Positions 20,428-29,939 of a DNA stretch of 39,967 nt are shown here, in pieces; position 1 is the first letter of the stretch; every line of letters begins with the position of its first letter. The notes under the pieces were generated by a model. It was not told the DNA's origin. It made no database searches and worked only from the letters and a program-made list of their open reading frames with translations. The stretch is from assembly GCA_903873905.1 (NCBI GenBank), contig CAIQQJ010000093.1, positions 1 through 39,967 of the forward strand, given 5' to 3'. The translations under genes were made by a program, and so were the position numbers. Origin of the DNA: an uncultured Flavobacteriales bacterium. Lineage in GTDB: Bacteria > Bacteroidota > Bacteroidia > Palsa-965.

Positions 20428-21009
20428 TTAAAACTTACACAACTCTTCATACATTTCCTTCACTGGCAAGCCCATCACATTAAAATAAGAACCTTCAATT
20501 CTTTCCATGCCAATATATCCAATAAATTCCTGTGCGCCGTAAGCACCGGCTTTATCAAAAGGTTTGTAAGTGGCAATGTAAAAATCAATTTCTCCTTCTG
20601 TCAATTCCTTAAAAAAAACATCGGTTTTAACGGAAAATGAAATTTCCTTTTTCGAGGATTTCAAACACACGCCTGTATAAACTTCGTGTTTGTTTCCTGA
20701 AAGTTCCATCAACATCACTTTTGCATCTTCCGCATCTTGCGGTTTATTCAGCACATGTCCGTTGATCCAAACAATAGTATCAGCTGTAATCACAATGGTG
20801 TTTTCATCCAATTCTCTTTCGAACGCATCGGCTTTTTTGCGGGAGAGAAACAATGGAATTTCATCACGTTCCAAATGTTCGGGAAAAGATTCATCCACTT
20901 CTTTCGTTTCCAATTCAAAATCAATTCCCAATTCACGCAACAAATATTGGCGACGAGGAGATTTTGACGCAAGAATAAATCGGAATTGGTTAAGATGCTC
21001 AGGATACAT
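20428..21009 (-). CDS. maf: Maf nucleoside triphosphate pyrophosphatase
   Basis: A 193-residue cytoplasmic enzyme that hydrolyses non-canonical or methylated nucleoside triphosphates. It has the family start FILASKSPRRQYLL, the acidic ESFPE, ADTIVW (catalytic Asp) and KPFDKAGAYGAQEF. The DKAGAYG version suggests the dTTP/UTP-type YhdE subgroup. Its start overlaps the end of the UbiA gene by 11 bp, making it the last gene of the DUF2520-KdsC-UbiA-Maf string. Confidence 0.95.
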   Translation of the reverse strand: MYPEHLNQFRFILASKSPRRQYLLRELGIDFELETKEVDESFPEHLERDEIPLFLSRKKADAFERELDENTIVITADTIVWINGHVLNKPQDAEDAKVMLMELSGNKHEVYTGVCLKSSKKEISFSVKTDVFFKELTEGEIDFYIATYKPFDKAGAYGAQEFIGYIGMERIEGSYFNVMGLPVKEMYEELCKF

Positions 21010-22012
21010 CGGCAGTTATCAATGCGTTAATCTGATGCGCGTATAGAAAGAGAAAACTGATTCCAACAACCATAATGAGTTTCACCATCAAACTTGTAAA
21101 TCGCCAATCGCTTTTCCCTTTCGCGGTTAAAATGCGATAACACAAATAAATTAAAGGGAGTTGGAGAAATAATGTGAAATAGAAATAAATTGACATGGAG
21201 AAATTTTCCGGTAAAAGTGTGCCAGAGATTTGTTGAAATTCCAACCATCCTAGTAGCACAATAACAATACTGCAAATTGTTGCCAATACTATTTTAGTTC
21301 TTGCGAGTCCAATAACAATTGGCATTGTTTTGCAGCCATATTCCATATCGCCTTCGTAATCTTCAACATCCTTTATTATTTCTCTGAGAAGCGAAACAAT
21401 GAATGCAAACAAGGCAATGGTTTGAGTCACATGCAACGCATCCGTTAAATTCAGATATTCTGATTGAACCAACTCAGGAAACGCCTTGTAAATATTTGGA
21501 ATTTCAAATAAGATCACCATCATTGGAACAATTCCTGACAATAAGGCGATAACCAAATTACCAACAAGAAATTGTCTTTTGAGATTGGTGGAATAAAACC
21601 AAAGCAGAGCAGGAGCACTGATAAAAAGAAAGGATCCTACACGAAAGAAATTGTATTTCCAGGATAAGTATAAACCAAGTCCTGCGCCAATTATATTGAT
21701 GGTCATGTGTGCTCCCATTGCAACACGGCGCTTAATTACTTTTCCTACAACATTTGTATTTGGTCGATTCACACTATCCACTCGAATGTCAAAATAATCA
21801 TTGATGATATATCCCGCAGCGCCAATCATTACAGTTGAAAGAACCAGTAGAAAAAAATCAATTTCTGTCATTTGAACTTTCAGCAATGAATAATCCAAAT
21901 CATGAGCCTTTAAATTCAAAATAGGAATCAACAAAAACCAACGCACCATGTATTGCGTAAACGCCATGATGAGCAAATTCGGCCAACGGATTAATTTTAG
22001 AAATGGGATCAT
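20999..22012 (-). CDS. UbiA-family prenyltransferase (geranylgeranylglycerol-phosphate type)
   Basis: A 337-residue integral membrane enzyme with about nine helices. The two Asp-rich prenyl-diphosphate motifs are NDYFDIRVDSVNRP (near residue 70-85) and DVEDYEGD (near 215). This Bacteroidota group is usually annotated as geranylgeranylglycerol-phosphate geranylgeranyltransferase, which would attach a second prenyl chain to a glycerol lipid; the actual acceptor could equally be a quinone precursor. Its reading frame overlaps maf by 11 bp. It follows the KdsC-like gene after 113 bp that contain a nested inverted repeat. Confidence 0.85.
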   Translation of the reverse strand: MIPFLKLIRWPNLLIMAFTQYMVRWFLLIPILNLKAHDLDYSLLKVQMTEIDFFLLVLSTVMIGAAGYIINDYFDIRVDSVNRPNTNVVGKVIKRRVAMGAHMTINIIGAGLGLYLSWKYNFFRVGSFLFISAPALLWFYSTNLKRQFLVGNLVIALLSGIVPMMVILFEIPNIYKAFPELVQSEYLNLTDALHVTQTIALFAFIVSLLREIIKDVEDYEGDMEYGCKTMPIVIGLARTKIVLATICSIVIVLLGWLEFQQISGTLLPENFSMSIYFYFTLFLQLPLIYLCYRILTAKGKSDWRFTSLMVKLIMVVGISFLFLYAHQINALITADVS

Positions 22013-22044
22013 TATGTTGTAAAAATAGGGAAAGAAAATCAGTT

Positions 22045-22110
22045 GGCGGTTGATGGTGGGCAGTCAATATTATTGGATACTGTTGTTGACTGAATGACTA
22101 ACAAACCGCC
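22045..22110. repeat. Nested inverted repeat between KdsC-like and UbiA genes
   Basis: The outer arms GGCGGTT (22045-22051) and AACCGCC (22104-22110) enclose the inner arms CAGTCAA (22061-22067) and TTGACTG (22086-22092). Both pairs are perfect 7-bp complements, so a 66-base two-tier hairpin is possible in either strand. There is no T-run after it on the transcribed (minus) strand, so it does not look like a terminator. Confidence 0.5.
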
Positions 22111-22125
22111 TGCGGCAAATTGATG

Positions 22126-22626
22126 TCACCATTTCTTATTTAAGCGAAGAACCTGTTCAATAACATCTCTCACACAACCTTCTCCACCTTTTAATGGTGA
22201 TACATAAATACAAATCTCACGGATTTCAGAAGCGGCATCATAAGGACAGGTTGCAACACCTGCACGTTTCATTGCGAATAAATCGGGAAGATCATCACCC
22301 ATGTAAAGAACTTCTTCTTCCTTCAAATCATAAACAGTAGTGAATTCCTTGAACGTTTCTTCTTTATCGTATGCGCCAAGATAAACTTCTTGCAATCCGA
22401 GATTTTTAAAACGATTTTTTAAATTCTCGTCTTTGGCTGCTGAAATGATTGCAACGGTAAATCCTTCATGAACGGCTCGTTGTAATGCAAAACCATCTCT
22501 AGCATTTACACGTCGGGAAGTTGTGTTATCGGAATGAAACTGAATAGATCCGTCGGTGAGCACGCCATCAATGTCAAAAACAAATGCTTTGACCTTATTC
22601 AGACGTTGCTTGAAATTATCACTCAT
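22126..22626 (-). CDS. KdsC-type HAD phosphatase
   Basis: A 166-residue C0-type HAD hydrolase, the size of 3-deoxy-D-manno-octulosonate 8-phosphate phosphatase, which makes KDO for lipopolysaccharide. The catalytic pair is Asp18/Asp20 in FDIDGVLTDG; motif II is the Ser in AIISAAKD, and MGDDLPDLFAMKRAGV is motif III with the cap-less pattern of KdsC. Its ATG overlaps the stop of the DUF2520 gene by four bases (ATGA). KDO synthesis is the likeliest role, although KdsA, KdsB and KdsD are not in the window. Confidence 0.88.
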   Translation of the reverse strand: MSDNFKQRLNKVKAFVFDIDGVLTDGSIQFHSDNTTSRRVNARDGFALQRAVHEGFTVAIISAAKDENLKNRFKNLGLQEVYLGAYDKEETFKEFTTVYDLKEEEVLYMGDDLPDLFAMKRAGVATCPYDAASEIREICIYVSPLKGGEGCVRDVIEQVLRLNKKW

Positions 22627-23417
22627 TTTTTCTTGCGTGATCGTTTGATAATTCCAGCACTCATTTCATTATACAATTTTTTCAATTCAGGATGTTTTTT
22701 CAAAAGGGCAATTTGAGCATTCATCACTTTTGTATCCTTACGAACAGCAGGACCTGTTTGTGCTTCTGCAGGTGATAATTCCATCACTTTAACAGCAGTT
22801 TCATCAATCAATGGACGAATCAAGTCGAAAGGAAGTTTTTGTTCATTCAATAAATCTTCCGCGATTGCATAAATATGATTGGTGAAATTATTTGCAAATA
22901 CTGCAGCTAGATGTGCCGCTTGACGTTGTTTTGAATCGAGATTATAAACACAATCTGAAAGAGTTTCCGCTACATTCATCAATGAATGAAGTGTGCTGAT
23001 GTCGCTTCCTTCAATGCAAATCGGAACAATACTGAACTCTTTCTTTCTATTTTTTGAAAATGTTTGAAGCGGATAAAAAACGCCATACTGTTCAAACTTT
23101 TTCAATACGTCCATTGAAACACTTCCAGAAGTATGTACAACAATTCCTTCGGTGACTTTCATCTTTTTTACAAGAGCTGGAATTGCATCATCTTTCACTG
23201 CGATAATAATCAATGCAGGGCGTTTATCAATTTTCGTAATATCAGTAAGAACTTTTGCCTTTAGTTTTTTTGCAAGAACTTTTGCGTTGGCTTTATTGCG
23301 ACTATACACCTGAACAATTTCCGCATCAGCTTCTTTCAAAGCTTCGCCTAAATTTGTTGCGACATTTCCGGAACCGAGAAGGATAACTCGAAGACGTTGT
23401 AGAGAATTTTCTGGCAT
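22623..23417 (-). CDS. Rossmann-fold / DUF2520 oxidoreductase-like protein
   Basis: A 264-residue protein with an N-terminal NAD(P)-binding Rossmann domain (LLGSGNVATNLGEAL, then VQVYSRN as the end of strand 2, and VHTSGSVSMDVL) and a C-terminal helical DUF2520 domain (about 130-255, AAVFANNFTNHIYAIAEDLL, TGPAVRKD). The fold is that of 6-phosphogluconate or ketopantoate reductase-like dehydrogenases. The reaction is not known. It begins 50 bp after ccmF and overlaps the KdsC-like gene by four bases, so it is part of the same transcription unit. Confidence 0.85.
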   Translation of the reverse strand: MPENSLQRLRVILLGSGNVATNLGEALKEADAEIVQVYSRNKANAKVLAKKLKAKVLTDITKIDKRPALIIIAVKDDAIPALVKKMKVTEGIVVHTSGSVSMDVLKKFEQYGVFYPLQTFSKNRKKEFSIVPICIEGSDISTLHSLMNVAETLSDCVYNLDSKQRQAAHLAAVFANNFTNHIYAIAEDLLNEQKLPFDLIRPLIDETAVKVMELSPAEAQTGPAVRKDTKVMNAQIALLKKHPELKKLYNEMSAGIIKRSRKKK

Positions 23418-23467: not shown

Positions 23468-26194
23468 TTACTTTTTCACTTCCTCCGTGATTTTATTTTT
23501 CCTTTTCCGTTCACGTACGGCAAGGAATGTTCCAGCTACCATGATGAGGCAACCAATCCATAAAATATTTATTCCTGGGAATACAGAAGCTTCCAAAACA
23601 ATAAAATCTGCTTTTTTTGATTCTTTGACAGATGAATAAACTTCAATGTTATGATCTTCCGGTCTTAATTTCCAGAAAGTCAATTTAACTCCAAGATCTT
23701 CATCAATGGCATCAATTTGTCTTGTTACACCGGTATTTCTATTGATAAAGAAATAAGCCTTCAGAAATTTCTTATTTAATGTCCCATCGAATATTTGGAA
23801 ATTAGCAACGATTCCATATTCATCCTTAGCGATTTTTATATCGGTGGAATCAATGCGTTGCATACTGTCGAGAATAGCAATGCAATTATCCAAACCAAGT
23901 GTATCACCAACAGCAAGCGTATGATTCACTGGCGTGCTAAATAAGTCTCCTTTTTGACCTTCTTTTCCTTCGTTACCAACTAGTGAAGCGGGATCAACAA
24001 ATTTTATAAAAGAGTAAATGTCTTTGTGCAAATAATGTTTGGTATCCGGTTCAGCTGCATTTCCCATGAAAGGATTAAGTTGAATAAACGGTCGAAGAGT
24101 AAATGCTTTTTCCGGTTTCCCTGCATCTGATTTTTTAAGGAAATCTACATTGAAAAAAACGTATTTCGTGCCATCCTTTGTTTTCGGTTCACGATTTGTA
24201 TACGTCACGAGATAATCTCCCATGGTTAAGGTATCACCGCGCTTGAGATAAATATTTTCCGCATTTGAACCCTGATTTGTGAATGCACCGATATCAAAGT
24301 GAGAAGTGTTCGAAGAAATTGTTTCTTTTTTCGAAGTGGAAATCACAATTCCAAGCAGCAATACAGCAAATCCAATATGTGCAATTGACGAACCTGCTTT
24401 TTTAATGTTACCCTTGAAAATTTTATACCAATAATCTGCATTGGCAATAATTGCGAAAATACTTGAGAAAACAAGGAAGGAGCAAATAATATAAATTCCG
24501 CGTTTGTCGGCATTTGCAAGTTCATAAGCAGAATTGAAATAAATCAGGAAAACCAATGGAAAAGAAATGGCAAGACTGATAATAAATGATCTTCTGATTT
24601 GACGGCTAAATGTTTTGAAATCGGTCGTCTTGTATTTGAAAAACTGTGTCACCGCCATTAACAAAGAAATAATGACTGCGAAAGGTATTTGCCATTTGTT
24701 GTAAAATAAGATAACCTTATCGCCGGCACCTGGAGCCATTCGTGCTTCAGCAAGTTTCGGAACCCACGACCAATTTGTTTTTACCATCAACCACTGAAAA
24801 AATTCATGAATGCTGTCAATCTTTAGGAATTTGTTGACAACGGGAGACGATGTGTAAAAAATAATCTGGAAAGAGGCTATTAGAAATACAATCGAACCAA
24901 TAAACATCCAGAATTCCCTTGACCATAAATCTTCTTCTTCCTTTTGTTTTGGGAAATATTTCATGTATCCAATCAACATGAATAGGAATGAACTTACCAA
25001 TAGAATTAACATGGATGAAGCATGATGTCCTGCTACAAATTGGAACAGAACAATAAGTGCAATTCCAGTATAAAGGATTTTCAGCCTCCAATTGAACGCG
25101 AGCAGAAATACGGAAAGCCATAAAAAGAATCCCATAAATGCAGTGAGTTCTTCATTGAGACCATCATCTGTAAATGCATGTACCGATGAGTCACTGAGAA
25201 TTCCGCTCTTGGTAAGAAATGTTGAATAGACAATCAACAGGAATGTTGCAATGCAAAGAAAAAATGTTGTGAATAAAGATTGCCCTTTATTGCGGTACAG
25301 AAGCATTACGTGCGCAGCACCAACCAAAATCAACCAAGGAACGAAAGATGCATTCTCGACAGGATCCCATGCCCAAAATCCGCCAAAGCTTAATGATTCA
25401 TAAGCCCATGCGCCACCCATTAAAATTCCAGTTCCCAAAACCATTACACCAATGTAAGCCCAGGTTAATGCGGGCTTTTGCCATTCGTAATAACGTTTTG
25501 TCCATAAGCCCGCCAATGCAAAAGCGAATGGTACTGTTGTTAAGGCAAAACCTAAAAATAAGGTTGGAGGATGAATGGTCATCCAATAGTTTTGCAAGAG
25601 TGGGTTTAAGCCACGGCCATCTTGAAAGAGCGGAATTTTAGTGAGGTAGTCGGGAATTTTAGTCCATGGCAAACCAATGTTGCTTTCTTTCAATCGCATC
25701 AGTTCAAATGGATTGCTTCCTACGTGAACGTTGCCGAAATAAACACCAAGTAACATCATGGAGAGGAAAACCTGAACCAAAGAAACAATTGTGATTACAG
25801 GAGCTTCCCATTCTTTTGCTCGACGCATCAAAACCAAACCGATAACGGCATGCCAAAAAAGCCATAATAAGGTGCTACCTTCTTGACCTTCCCACATACA
25901 AGCAAGAACATAATTCATTGGCATATCACGTTTCGAATGTTGCCAAACATATTGGTATTCGAATCGATGGGAAATAACCATCATTAAAAGCGTGATGAAT
26001 ATTCCAAAGACTGCGATAGCGTGTGTGATATACAAACTATGCGCTGTAATTTTCCAGCCAGCATCTCCAGAAATATCTCGCGTTCGGATAATGTTTGCAA
26101 CGACAGAAAACAATGCCGTTACAAATGCAAGGACCACGAAGAAATGGCCCAATTCACCCCACCATACTTGTTCTCCAACGTATTTAATTTCCAT
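23468..26194 (-). CDS. ccmF: Cytochrome c maturation protein CcmF (heme lyase component)
   Basis: A 908-residue polytopic inner-membrane protein. The N-terminal half has the CcmF signatures WEGQEGSTLLWLFW, MTIHPPTLFLGF (a probable heme-ligand His) and the WWD domain GGFWAWDPVENASFVPW near residue 276. The C-terminal part has more helices and a large periplasmic block (about 630-860) before a final helix (ILWIGCLIMVAGTFLAV). It is longer than the roughly 650 residues of proteobacterial CcmF, mostly because of that block. CcmF transfers heme from holo-CcmE to apocytochrome. It follows ccmE by about 50 bp. No CcmH or CcmI gene lies in the window. Confidence 0.95.
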   Translation of the reverse strand: MEIKYVGEQVWWGELGHFFVVLAFVTALFSVVANIIRTRDISGDAGWKITAHSLYITHAIAVFGIFITLLMMVISHRFEYQYVWQHSKRDMPMNYVLACMWEGQEGSTLLWLFWHAVIGLVLMRRAKEWEAPVITIVSLVQVFLSMMLLGVYFGNVHVGSNPFELMRLKESNIGLPWTKIPDYLTKIPLFQDGRGLNPLLQNYWMTIHPPTLFLGFALTTVPFAFALAGLWTKRYYEWQKPALTWAYIGVMVLGTGILMGGAWAYESLSFGGFWAWDPVENASFVPWLILVGAAHVMLLYRNKGQSLFTTFFLCIATFLLIVYSTFLTKSGILSDSSVHAFTDDGLNEELTAFMGFFLWLSVFLLAFNWRLKILYTGIALIVLFQFVAGHHASSMLILLVSSFLFMLIGYMKYFPKQKEEEDLWSREFWMFIGSIVFLIASFQIIFYTSSPVVNKFLKIDSIHEFFQWLMVKTNWSWVPKLAEARMAPGAGDKVILFYNKWQIPFAVIISLLMAVTQFFKYKTTDFKTFSRQIRRSFIISLAISFPLVFLIYFNSAYELANADKRGIYIICSFLVFSSIFAIIANADYWYKIFKGNIKKAGSSIAHIGFAVLLLGIVISTSKKETISSNTSHFDIGAFTNQGSNAENIYLKRGDTLTMGDYLVTYTNREPKTKDGTKYVFFNVDFLKKSDAGKPEKAFTLRPFIQLNPFMGNAAEPDTKHYLHKDIYSFIKFVDPASLVGNEGKEGQKGDLFSTPVNHTLAVGDTLGLDNCIAILDSMQRIDSTDIKIAKDEYGIVANFQIFDGTLNKKFLKAYFFINRNTGVTRQIDAIDEDLGVKLTFWKLRPEDHNIEVYSSVKESKKADFIVLEASVFPGINILWIGCLIMVAGTFLAVRERKRKNKITEEVKK

Positions 26195-26245: not shown

Positions 26246-26632
26246 CTATTTTGTTACAGCTACTTGGCCATTGTTATATTTCGAAGGACATTTCATTAAA
26301 ATATCTTTCGCTACAAAATCATCGCCTTTCATTGATCCTACAATTACAACTTGCTGTGAACGTTCGAAATCTTGGGGTTTACTTTTCAATAGCACAACAT
26401 GCTTTTCATTACCATTTCTGTCTTTCATGTAAAATGAAAATTTGTTAGGATCTACTGCAGGATTATATTCCATTGGTTTACTACGGTCCAAAGTTCCTGC
26501 TACGTGCACCTCTGCATTTCCATCTCCAGCTTGTTTGAAATCAGCATATGTGCTGGAATTTCCTAACAACGTAAACATGGCTCCAATTGCAATTGCAATT
26601 ACAATGATTCCAACTATATGTGTCTTTTTCAT
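26246..26632 (-). CDS. ccmE: Heme chaperone CcmE, Cys-type (CxxxY) variant
   Basis: A 128-residue membrane-anchored periplasmic protein. Residues 5-24 form the single anchor helix; about 38-112 form the OB-fold barrel (EVHVAGTLDRSK, FSFYMKDRNGNEK, VVIVGSMKGDDFVAKDILMK). The heme site reads KCPSKYNN: Cys115 stands where proteobacterial CcmE has the covalent heme-binding His, and Tyr119 keeps the axial-ligand position (CxxxY instead of HxxxY). I checked these codons by hand on the minus strand (TGT then TAT). The Cys form is known from archaea and some bacteria that lack CcmH. The gene is 11 bp after the ccmD-like gene and 51 bp before ccmF. Confidence 0.95.
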   Translation of the reverse strand: MKKTHIVGIIVIAIAIGAMFTLLGNSSTYADFKQAGDGNAEVHVAGTLDRSKPMEYNPAVDPNKFSFYMKDRNGNEKHVVLLKSKPQDFERSQQVVIVGSMKGDDFVAKDILMKCPSKYNNGQVAVTK

Positions 26633-26643
26633 TTGGCGGGTTT

Positions 26644-26883
26644 TTATTTATTGATTTGTTTTTCAAGTTTGGAAACTTTTCTTTCGAGTCTGAAAAGTGT
26701 TATGAATAATCCTAGAAGAATAATTCCAATGATTGCAACAACCACATTGAGTGAAGCGTGTCCATGCAATCCCTCGAATAATTTTTCATCCATGGAATTA
26801 TTGGGTTGTGCGTTTATGGTCAATGATTGGAATAATGCCAAAGCCAAAAATGCTACAATGCGTACTTGGAAAATATTTTTCAT
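26644..26883 (-). CDS. CcmD-like small membrane protein
   Basis: A 79-residue protein with an N-terminal hydrophobic signal-like segment (VRIVAFLALALFQSL), a short periplasmic stretch, and one transmembrane helix (LNVVVAIIGIILLGLFITLF) followed by the basic, heptad-like RLERKVSKLEKQINK. Small size, the helix-plus-charged-tail form and the position between ccmC and ccmE fit CcmD, which helps release holo-CcmE from CcmABC. Its ATG overlaps the ccmC stop by four bases (ATGA). Sequence identity to classical CcmD is low, so the name rests partly on context. Confidence 0.75.
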   Translation of the reverse strand: MKNIFQVRIVAFLALALFQSLTINAQPNNSMDEKLFEGLHGHASLNVVVAIIGIILLGLFITLFRLERKVSKLEKQINK

Positions 26884-27914
26884 GATTCAAGTGTGTGTTC
26901 GTGTAATTTGTGAATTCGTAGACGAAGTGAATAAATCCAAAAGCCAAGAAGAATCCATCCCAAAACTCCGCAATAAAAAACAGGTCGTATGGAATTATCA
27001 AGATCATATTTATTGAAGCCGGGATTTCCACCATTGCCAGGATGCAATGAATCTGTTCCTTGCAAACGAGGAAGAATTCCAATCAGTACAATCATCATTA
27101 CATAAGCGAAAATGCTGTAGATAGCGGAAACACGCGCTCGTTTTTGTTCATCGTCCATTGCATTTCGCAATACGGCATAAGCAAGGTAGGCCAACATGGT
27201 AATTGCCGTTCCATTCAACTTCACATCATCCACCCACCATGCACCCCATGTAACACGTGCCCACAAAGAACCAGTAATCAATCCAAGAACGCCGAAAACC
27301 AATCCGACATTTACGGCAGCATTGGCTTTTTGGTCGTATTTCAAATCAAATCCTCGTAGATATTTTAGATTATTCCACAGCGCCCAAGAGAGCAATGCAA
27401 TCATGGTAAACCACATGGGTACATGGAAAAACAAATTGCGTAGAGATTCATAAAGAATAAATTGAAATGGAATTGCCCAATGGTCTTGTTCTTCATTTTT
27501 TACAACAGGATGACAAACAGGAACTATTCCACCACGTGTGGTATCAATGGTTGAAATGGCATTATTCATTACCAATCTTCCATCTTTATCATTGTAAACT
27601 GTTAAACCAAAAACAGGATTCGTGAGAGGAGCAATAGGAGGGAAGTCAAGTTCAAGATGGGTGTTGTCAACTACACGAATTGCATTAGTGCAATTATTCT
27701 GATTATCATTTATTAACCAAGCAGAAAGGCTTGCATTCTGATCTTTGAAATGCGTATTGTAACCCGTAACTTTTACAGTAAAAGGGCCTGAATAAGTTGA
27801 TTGTACAGAAGATGTTGCCTTAATTAGTCCAGGCGCTAAAGGAACAAGTAGACCTGCAAAAAACGTAAAAAACAATAGGGCTACACAAAGAATTTTCCAC
27901 CAATTCCGCTTCAT
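26880..27914 (-). CDS. ccmC: Heme transport protein CcmC/CcsA family, with extra periplasmic domain
   Basis: A 344-residue inner-membrane protein that loads heme onto CcmE. The WWD-type segment reads WGAWWVDDVKLNG, compared with WGTWWVWDARLT in classical CcmC. It also has RVTWGAWW preceded by GLITGSLWA and the late helix ILLGFWIYSLRLRIHKLHEH. Proteobacterial CcmC is about 245 residues; here roughly 130 residues are inserted after the first helix (about 35-155, including VKVTGYNTHFKDQNASLSAW), predicted to be periplasmic. The gene is 14 bp after ccmB and overlaps the ccmD-like gene. Confidence 0.92.
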   Translation of the reverse strand: MKRNWWKILCVALLFFTFFAGLLVPLAPGLIKATSSVQSTYSGPFTVKVTGYNTHFKDQNASLSAWLINDNQNNCTNAIRVVDNTHLELDFPPIAPLTNPVFGLTVYNDKDGRLVMNNAISTIDTTRGGIVPVCHPVVKNEEQDHWAIPFQFILYESLRNLFFHVPMWFTMIALLSWALWNNLKYLRGFDLKYDQKANAAVNVGLVFGVLGLITGSLWARVTWGAWWVDDVKLNGTAITMLAYLAYAVLRNAMDDEQKRARVSAIYSIFAYVMMIVLIGILPRLQGTDSLHPGNGGNPGFNKYDLDNSIRPVFYCGVLGWILLGFWIYSLRLRIHKLHEHTLES

Positions 27915-27928
27915 CTAAATTTCTTTTT

Positions 27929-28591
27929 TTAATCACGCCAAAGGTAAGGAAATAACAAGTAAGCAAGTGCCGCAATTACCAGATTCAAAGTTACCAAAAC
28001 GCCAATGTAAGTTAAGGCCCCATTCCAAGCCAATCCATCAGCTGCGTATTTGGAAAGTTTTAATGTTGCAAGTAATAATGGAATAACAACTGGAAATCCA
28101 AGAATAGCCATAAGGGTAAAATTATTCCCAGCCTTCGAAGCAATTGCTGATATCATAGTAAAAGCCACTGCAAGTCCAGTACAGCCTAAGAATAATGCAA
28201 GAAAAAACAAGGGGGAATTCTGAATTGGGTAACCAACAAGAAATGAAAAGACAAGTAATCCTGCGAAACCGAGGAATACCATCAGAATAATACTGTAAAC
28301 CATTTTTGCCAGTAATACAGCGCGTGGATCAGCGAGTGTATATAAATAAAGCAATCGACCTCTACTTTCTTGAGCAAAACTCCTTGCAACACCTGTTACT
28401 GACGCAAAAAGAAGGATAATCCAGAATAGTGCATTCCAAACTGGAACCTCATTGATTACCCGAAAACTGAATTTGGCAACAAAAACTGTTGAGACTACAA
28501 AAAGGAGAACGCCATAAAATGCATATTTCTGCCTTTGTTCAAGTAGAATTTCACGTTTGATGAGAGAGCCCGTTTGTTTTAATAGCGACAT
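27929..28591 (-). CDS. ccmB: Heme exporter-like membrane subunit CcmB
   Basis: A 220-residue membrane protein with six predicted helices, the ABC-2-type membrane part of the CcmABCD complex. Family traits are KREILLEQRQKYAFYG, SFAQESRGRLLYLYTLADPRAVLLAK and GFPVVIPLLLATL. The frame is open to 28726, but a consensus -7 box sits at 28604-28597, so the ATG at 28591 is the right start. The ATP-binding partner CcmA is not in this window. It is the first gene of a unit that seems to run to maf (20428). Confidence 0.93.
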   Translation of the reverse strand: MSLLKQTGSLIKREILLEQRQKYAFYGVLLFVVSTVFVAKFSFRVINEVPVWNALFWIILLFASVTGVARSFAQESRGRLLYLYTLADPRAVLLAKMVYSIILMVFLGFAGLLVFSFLVGYPIQNSPLFFLALFLGCTGLAVAFTMISAIASKAGNNFTLMAILGFPVVIPLLLATLKLSKYAADGLAWNGALTYIGVLVTLNLVIAALAYLLFPYLWRD

Positions 28592-28708: not shown

Positions 28709-28741
28709 AAAAAAAAACGCCTCCAAAAATTATGGAGGCGT
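28709..28741 (-). terminator. Rho-independent terminator of the cytochrome c gene
   Basis: ACGCCTCC and GGAGGCGT form a perfect 8-bp stem with a nine-base loop (28741-28717 on the minus strand), followed by a T-run in the minus-strand reading. It begins about 30 bp after the cytochrome stop and separates that gene from the ccm operon. Confidence 0.88.
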
Positions 28742-28771: not shown

Positions 28772-29656
28772 TTAGAAACCAGGGTATGCTAATGCATTTT
28801 GTCCCGCTTTCAACAAATCTTTCACCATACTTTCAGTCATATTTGGGAAAGTATGCATCAATGATGCTGGGGTTCCACATCGCACTTTATGTTGAAATTC
28901 ATCAGGACTGTTTCTCATAAAATCGCCAACGTAGGCAGAACTGTCATCAACCGCAATGAAAGTCCCGTTTGTTCCGTGACAAGTAACACAGTTAGCCGCA
29001 TAAACAGCATCTCCATTAGCAGCATTACCATCCAAACCGACATTTGTAATTACGGCTGTTCCTGTTGGGTAAAAACCTGAAGTGGTGAGGTCATAAAGTC
29101 TGAAAGTGTTCAAGGCTTTTGTTTTGAGGAATTTTGTGATCTTCCAAAGTTCATTGTCAGTTAGCAATAAGCTAAAATCTGGCATTGAAGCATTGTAGGA
29201 TCTGTTGTTTGCATTTGACATTCTGTTTCTTCCTCCAGTATGTTTTACTGCATTAAAAACTTCGCGCAAATTATGTGTTTGTGCAAAAACATATAAGTCG
29301 TTTGGTGCTACAGCAGGTCGAATAGAATCAGGAACTGCATTGATGAGAACTCCTGCACTTCCTCGTAAATCAAATCCATGGCAAGAGCCACAAGTGAAGA
29401 AATCTTCATGGTTCAATAGAGCTGTGTCTGTTACTGCTAACTCCTCAATAAAATTATCATACAAACGTCCTCCGATTAATCCATCTGCAGCATCAAAAGC
29501 AGACTGATCCGCTGCACTCACAACATTTCCATCAAGACCATTTGTACCGGCAGGCCCAGCAGGTCCTTCTTTTTTGCAACTTGAAGTAAATACAATTGCG
29601 GAATAGAAAACTGCCGTAAAAATAACGGCAGAGATCTTTATTGAGCTAGTTTTCAT
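28772..29656 (-). CDS. Diheme c-type cytochrome lipoprotein
   Basis: A 294-residue exported protein. A lipoprotein signal peptide ends at Cys27 (VFTSSCKKE). A short collagen-like stretch follows (GPAGPAGTNGLDGN). Two heme-attachment motifs are visible: CGSCH (Cys89, Cys92, His93) and CVTCH (Cys223, Cys226, His227), each within a small cytochrome domain; Met158 (NASMPDFS) is a probable axial ligand of the first. I chose the ATG at 29656 because it starts the lipoprotein signal. It has its own promoter and terminator and lies directly upstream of the ccm genes that would mature it. The electron partner is unknown. Confidence 0.9.
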   Translation of the reverse strand: MKTSSIKISAVIFTAVFYSAIVFTSSCKKEGPAGPAGTNGLDGNVVSAADQSAFDAADGLIGGRLYDNFIEELAVTDTALLNHEDFFTCGSCHGFDLRGSAGVLINAVPDSIRPAVAPNDLYVFAQTHNLREVFNAVKHTGGRNRMSNANNRSYNASMPDFSLLLTDNELWKITKFLKTKALNTFRLYDLTTSGFYPTGTAVITNVGLDGNAANGDAVYAANCVTCHGTNGTFIAVDDSSAYVGDFMRNSPDEFQHKVRCGTPASLMHTFPNMTESMVKDLLKAGQNALAYPGF

Positions 29657-29682
29657 TTGAATTGGGTTAAAGTGTAGGGCTA

Positions 29683-29710
29683 TACAAATGTATTTATGTG
29701 TGTAAATACA
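29683..29710 (-). promoter_or_regulatory. Promoter with overlapping palindromic operator, cytochrome c gene
   Basis: On the minus strand TACATTTG (29692-29685) is an exact -7 box, about 22-30 bp before the ATG. Two dyads overlap it: TACA-AA-TGTA (29683-29692), matching the TACAnnTGTA core recognised by BlaI/MecI/CopY-type repressors, and TGTATTTA-TGTGTG-TAAATACA (29689-29710) with perfect 8-bp arms and the 22-bp length common for CRP/FNR-type sites. Which protein binds is inference. Confidence 0.5.
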
Positions 29711-29939
29711 CGAACTGACGCTGATCATGTATTTGAAGATTTAACACGCCTTTTTTTTGCAGGAAACTTGACTAAAAAAATCTTTTCATTTGCATACTTA
29801 GTAAAATAACCGCAAGCAATAAAATCTCGATTGAAATATTGCATGTGACTGATATAATGGTATTTATAACCAGATAAAAAGACAATCAAAGGATTAATTT
29901 GTAAGGATTTGTGGCATACTTACATGGATTCAATTTCAT

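Follow-up and report, generated by a model that had tools for sequence, protein, structure and literature searches.

A Probable System I* with Cys-Type CcmE and No Recognizable CcmH in an Uncultured Flavobacteriales Bacterium, and Its Counterparts in Other Bacteroidota

An uncultured Flavobacteriales bacterium very probably possesses a complete System I* for cytochrome c maturation, with CcmA encoded elsewhere than in the ccm operon. The window, as the whole stretch of 39,967 nucleotides is called below, is contig C93; it contains the operon and belongs to a genome of 3.93 Mb that is scored 100% complete. System I* is a named variant that has been studied since 2006 (Allen et al., 2006; Goddard et al., 2010; PMC3601427). 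An earlier note on the window had proposed a variant System I that is Cys-type and CcmH-free, and it was right: with a CPSKY motif in its only CcmE and no CcmH, the system corresponds to the published System I*. The core proteins CcmB, CcmC, CcmE, and CcmF are all present and keep their heme-ligand residues. The sole CcmE of the genome carries the Cys and the aromatic residue at +4 of System I* (C115 and Y119), and has Cys115 in place of the His of the HxxxY motif of canonical System I. Among the sampled Bacteroidota with System I, a Cys-type CcmE without a canonical CcmH is the rule and is not peculiar to this genome. What is new here, a little above routine, is this phylum-wide Cys-type pattern, a probable relocation of ccmA, and the periplasmic domains of CcmC and CcmF.

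The ccm Operon and Its Neighbors

The operon is a compact minus-strand run of ccmB, ccmC, ccmD, ccmE, and ccmF with no more than about 50 bp between neighboring genes, and all of its genes are intact with their catalytic residues conserved. The first gene, ccmB (27929..28591, (-)), encodes the permease of the heme-release complex (Pfam CcmB, 1.2e-11, residues 54-255 of the long frame); its open frame extends to 28726, and the likely ATG start is at 28591. It is followed by ccmC (26880..27914, (-)), which encodes a 344-aa WWD heme-handling protein (Pfam Cytochrom_C_asm, 1.2e-14), and by ccmD (26644..26883, (-)), which overlaps the end of ccmC and encodes a 79-aa protein with a single transmembrane (TM) segment (Pfam CcmD_alt, 6.1e-9). 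Then come ccmE (26246..26632, (-)), discussed below, and ccmF (23468..26194, (-)), encoding a 908-aa holocytochrome c synthase with the WWD motif (Pfam Cytochrom_C_asm, 7e-27, and CcmF_C). No CcmH, CcmI, or CcmA is recognizable beside the operon.

In alignments to the E. coli proteins, CcmC keeps the P-His residues H164 and H291 together with W218 and W223, and in CcmF the four heme histidines are all retained (H208, H295, H339, and H606, corresponding to E. coli H173, H261, H303, and H491). CcmC matches the E. coli CcmC 7f02, and its predicted fold matches 8ce1_C (Z 21.1). Similarly, CcmF matches the Thermus CcmF 6zmq by sequence, and its AlphaFold2 model (mean pLDDT 86.8) matches the same structure with a Z of 34.3 over 575 residues.

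Upstream of ccmB is a gene for a diheme c-type cytochrome (28772..29728, (-); Pfam Cytochrome_CBB3 and Cytochrom_C) with two CxxCH motifs, CGSCH and CVTCH. Between the two genes is a terminator-like hairpin with a T8 tail (28717..28741, (-)), consisting of nine pairs, six of them GC; two such sites were found vs. 0.2 expected in shuffles. This hairpin sets the ccm operon apart from the cytochrome gene, and the cytochrome, in its own transcription unit, is a plausible substrate of the ccm system. On the other side of the operon (window positions 20428-23417, (-)), ccmF is followed by a gene for a DUF2520 oxidoreductase, as it is in many relatives, and the translations in this region include, as judged by eye, a KdsC-like phosphatase, a UbiA-like prenyltransferase, and a Maf-like protein.

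CcmE and Its Predicted Heme Site

The product of ccmE is a 128-aa Cys-type periplasmic heme chaperone with an N-terminal anchor and an OB-fold domain (Pfam CcmE, E 6.8e-10; 39.6 bits vs. a cut-off of 24.6). Its reading frame begins with ATG, and the protein ends in ...ILMKCPSKYNNGQVAVTK. The residue expected to attach heme covalently is Cys115 (codon TGT, 26288..26290, (-)) in the motif K-C-P-S-K-Y119. When aligned to the MG1655 proteins, C115 and Y119 fall in the columns of E. coli CcmE His130 and Tyr134. Further, a profile built from eight Bacteroidota CcmE (n=8) matches the solved CcmE structures 2kct, 1sr3, and 8ce8, and places the C115 column at the KCP of the Cys-type 2kct and at the KHDENY of the E. 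coli 1sr3. Cys115 thus stands where the heme-binding His of CcmE normally is, as the earlier note had read it from the sequence. It is not a product of chance or sequencing error, because the CcmE proteins sampled from about 90 further Bacteroidota genomes all have the same CPSKY. CPSKY was also the commonest motif among the variant CcmE examined in 2011 (25 of 36; PMC3601427).

The Cys-type CcmE of Desulfovibrio binds heme covalently via its Cys (PMC3601427), and in Methanosarcina C120 of CcmE is required and CcmABCEF are sufficient (PMC9084895). By analogy with these experimentally studied relatives, a covalent bond between C115 and heme would be expected here. In another genome, a 312-aa open reading frame near the true ccmE (L220, G402:C44) has a CcmE-like domain without the CxxxY motif.

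CcmH and the Pattern across Bacteroidota

The earlier note's reading of the operon as lacking CcmH extends to the genome as a whole, in which there is no match to Pfam PF03918; the same search was positive in the control genomes of E. coli, Caulobacter, Thermus, and Deinobacterium. CcmE has exactly one match genome-wide. The two findings that would have spoken against a CcmH-free variant, a CcmH gene elsewhere in the genome (by PF03918) and a second, His-type CcmE, were therefore both looked for, and neither turned up.

The comparison of CcmE and CcmH across the phylum, which had been proposed as a check, gave the same picture. CcmE was found in 264 of 392 Bacteroidota genomes, and CPSKY is the motif in every CcmE that was read, which covered about 90 genomes from many families picked irrespective of motif. 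The CcmH profile scored in 12 of the 392 genomes, in five of them above the cut-off. Once these 12 matches had been inspected, none of the 392 genomes was left with a canonical CcmH, as judged with one Pfam profile on draft genomes, an approach that would miss a replacement that is very divergent or non-homologous. Ten of the 12 matches are CcmH-like domains, mostly zinc-ribbon fusions, in families outside the class; two were rejected as false (a histidine-kinase-like and a TPR frame). The two matches within the class (G076 and G355) have no CxxC.

We also scanned the 392 genomes for a His-type CcmE with the DNA pattern CAYGAYGARAAYTAY (HDENY). It matched in 78 genomes, at about the same rate as a reversed control pattern, and none of them coincides with a listed CcmE match when compared by eye; the 10 match loci that were inspected contain no CcmE. 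A further 80 loci from Pedobacter, Chitinophaga, Mucilaginibacter, Pontibacter, Spirosoma, and others have an operon built in the same way; they were baited with ILxKCPSKY, and are thus used for anatomy only and are uninformative on Cys vs. His.

The absence of CcmH is common in System I* without defining it, as about one third of Cys-type bacteria retain CcmH (PMC3601427). This retention, and the occurrence of CcmH-like CxxC domains with zinc ribbons in about a dozen other Bacteroidota, would favor the reading that a CcmH function is present and has gone unrecognized, in which case CcmF would have as its partner either a diverged CcmH or some unrelated thiol protein. We consider this unlikely, given the lack of any PF03918 match in this genome and of any credible match in its class among the 392 genomes, and given that the Desulfovibrio and archaeal relatives function without CcmH (PMC3601427, PMC9084895); the Desulfovibrio System I* operon yields holocytochrome in E. 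coli with neither CcmH nor CcmG (PMC3601427). On the strength of these published relatives, cytochrome synthesis without CcmH appears to be the better reading for the present genome. As for the CcmH-like CxxC proteins themselves (L036-L044, L046, and L048), they occur outside the class and away from the ccm operon, and most have an N-terminal zinc ribbon and a TM segment.

Reviews list Proteobacteria, Chloroflexi, Firmicutes, Deinococci, and archaea as hosts of System I*, and Bacteroidota are not listed (PMC3601427, PMC3884852). Our searches of the open-access literature turned up no description of System I* for Bacteroidota; a Sediminibacterium CcmC is aligned in one paper (PMC12077264). Two questions have been open since the discovery of System I*, namely how CcmF acts without CcmH and how the thioether between heme and CcmE is undone (PMC3601427). 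The Bacteroidota offer hundreds of natural replicates, including the easily grown hosts Pedobacter, Chitinophaga, and Mucilaginibacter, and are suited to testing such questions because every sampled System I of the phylum is Cys-type and none has a canonical CcmH.

A Candidate CcmA Away from the Operon

The earlier note was correct that neither CcmA nor CcmI is in view in the operon. The loss of CcmA from the genome does not follow, since a probable CcmA is encoded on another contig. This candidate is an orphan ABC ATPase of 207 aa in the CcmA clade (G000:C160:18331-18951, + strand; L269 6332-6952), located in the gene order lpxD-lpxC/fabZ-lpxA-(two repeat proteins)-ATPase-efp. It stands alone, without an adjacent permease gene, and is similar in size to E. 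coli CcmA.

In a phylogenetic tree, the orphan ATPase clusters apart from the other ABC ATPases of the genome and groups with E. coli CcmA (support 94/89). The tree has long branches, and the orphan ATPase (own_C160) is flagged as one of them; when the long branch of E. coli CcmA is left out, the orphan ATPase groups with the ccmB-linked CcmA of other Bacteroidota (100/99). An orthologue is present in 35 of 39 relatives, one per genome, and lpxA adjoins it in 24 of 30. The ATPase is present in 34 of the 36 relatives that have CcmE and is missing in two of the three without CcmE (Fisher p 0.02, uncorrected for relatedness).

We regard it as likely that the ATPase between lpxA and efp is CcmA, and the absence of CcmA is probably an effect of looking at the operon and not a gene loss. 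The alternative is that CcmA is truly absent, so that heme loading by CcmBCD(E) proceeds without ATP hydrolysis and the ATPase at lpxA-efp serves another transporter. Its long branch would fit this alternative, as would the genome G403, which has the ATPase without a detected CcmE, and the score against the NCBIfam ccmA model TIGR01189 (83.7 bits vs. a cut-off of 131.6, with no protein of the genome above it); the ccmB-linked CcmA of other Bacteroidota likewise fall below this cut-off. Against it stand the grouping with these CcmA and with E. coli CcmA, the stand-alone form without a permease gene, and the co-occurrence with CcmE, and we judge a true absence improbable. Gene calling in these bacteria should accordingly look for ccmA in the lpxA-efp interval, and an operon without this gene is not to be taken as a sign that it was lost.

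Between lpxA and the CcmA-like gene are two adjacent genes of SxSWDNWE-type repeat proteins (L269 5172-6271) without a Pfam match.

A reading in which the ccm operon survives as a relic, with System II (CcsBA) maturing the cytochromes, is hardly credible: some members of the class without CcmE exist and Bacteroides has a fused CcsBA (PMC10663686), but ResB/CcsB of System II has no match to PF05140 in this genome (control genomes were positive), the operon is intact with conserved catalytic residues, and a diheme cytochrome c is encoded alongside it.

Periplasmic Domains of CcmF and CcmC

CcmF has an enlarged C-terminal periplasmic beta domain (residues 640-873; 23576..24277, (-)), for which AlphaFold2 predicts beta strands over residues 648-873. 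The domain is about 250 aa long vs. about 100 aa in E. coli, where it comprises residues 510-611 (PMC3884852). The tail past the last TM heme His, which contains the domain, is 302 aa long here, 278-411 aa in 49 relatives, and 156 aa in E. coli. A match to ResB at residues 852-898, below the cut-off, raised the idea that the domain is a relative of CcsB/ResB. This found no support, as the Foldseek and VIA-align matches to CcsBA cover the TM core only.

Besides CcmF, CcmC also contains extra periplasmic sequence, a predicted all-beta insert at residues ~30-150 (27465..27827, (-)), after TM1 and ahead of the first heme-ligand His. The surplus is a single block of about 110 aa, and the CcmC of most relatives is about 220 aa long and has no insert. 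A search with the insert detected it in at least 31 of the 345 class genomes, spread over several families; the seven members sampled from the window's own genus all carry it, and a standard CcmC is found in other genera of that genus's family. The insert has a recurrent GYNTHF-like motif, and its two cysteines (C75 and C134 in the window's CcmC) mostly occur as a pair, with both missing in two cases, a pattern that suggests a disulfide. The AlphaFold2 model predicts beta strands at low confidence, from an alignment containing one insert-bearing homologue. No Pfam family scores above its cut-off (weak match to Wzt_C, E 0.0088). The insert appears to be undescribed, since according to a 2023 review CcmC lacks any significant periplasmic domain (PMC10663686).

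Speculatively, the CcmC insert, located above the heme hand-over site, may guide CcmE or cap the heme, and the CcmF beta domain may take over part of the apocytochrome holding by CcmH. A broader scenario, in which the CcmF domain holds the apocytochrome in place of CcmH, a CcmC beta cap is added in some lineages, and System I* took over the phylum, is offered tentatively and with rather low confidence.

Proposed Mechanism and Comparison with Known Systems

In the proposed System I* of this bacterium, CcmB, CcmC, and CcmD together with CcmA from the lpxA-efp locus would load heme onto the WWD/P-His site of CcmC and then release it on CcmE. A heme vinyl group would be bonded to Cys115 of CcmE by a thioether, and the iron would likely be ligated by Tyr119. 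The resulting holoCcmE would pass its heme to CcmF, which would form the two thioether bonds to the CxxCH of the apocytochrome without CcmH. The reductant for the apocytochrome would probably come from DsbD/CcdA-type proteins of the genome, in which DsbD-type proteins are encoded on contigs C157 and C7. Judging from the work on Desulfovibrio and Methanosarcina (PMC3601427, PMC9084895), the chemistry of both heme capture and apocytochrome reduction is expected to be unlike that in E. coli.

The closest counterpart is the System I* of Desulfovibrio and archaea, with which the present system shares a CPSKY CcmE, the lack of CcmH, the proteins CcmB, C, D, E, and F, and a CcmD as in D. desulfuricans; it differs in the putative ccmA at the lpxA-efp locus and in the larger periplasmic beta domains of CcmF and CcmC. 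Like CcmABCEF of Methanosarcina acetivorans (PMC9084895), it combines a CXXXY CcmE with the absence of CcmH, and of CcmI from the vicinity of the operon, and has genes apparently spread beyond one operon; unlike it, CcmD is present and CcmF is a single protein instead of CcmF1/F2. In CcsBA of System II (PMC10663686), a large periplasmic beta domain lies by the WWD heme site as in CcmF here, and the structural match is limited to the CcsA-like TM core (Z 22.5, residues 10-420 of the CcmF model).

A near-DNA search with E. coli gave no match. Compared with CcmABCDEFGH of E. coli, the order of CcmB, C, D, E, and F and the heme-ligand residues of CcmC and CcmF are alike, whereas here Cys replaces His130 of CcmE, CcmH is lacking, and the likely CcmA is unlinked. 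Both WWD proteins are also longer than in E. coli, with 908 aa vs. 647 aa for CcmF and 344 aa vs. 245 aa for CcmC.
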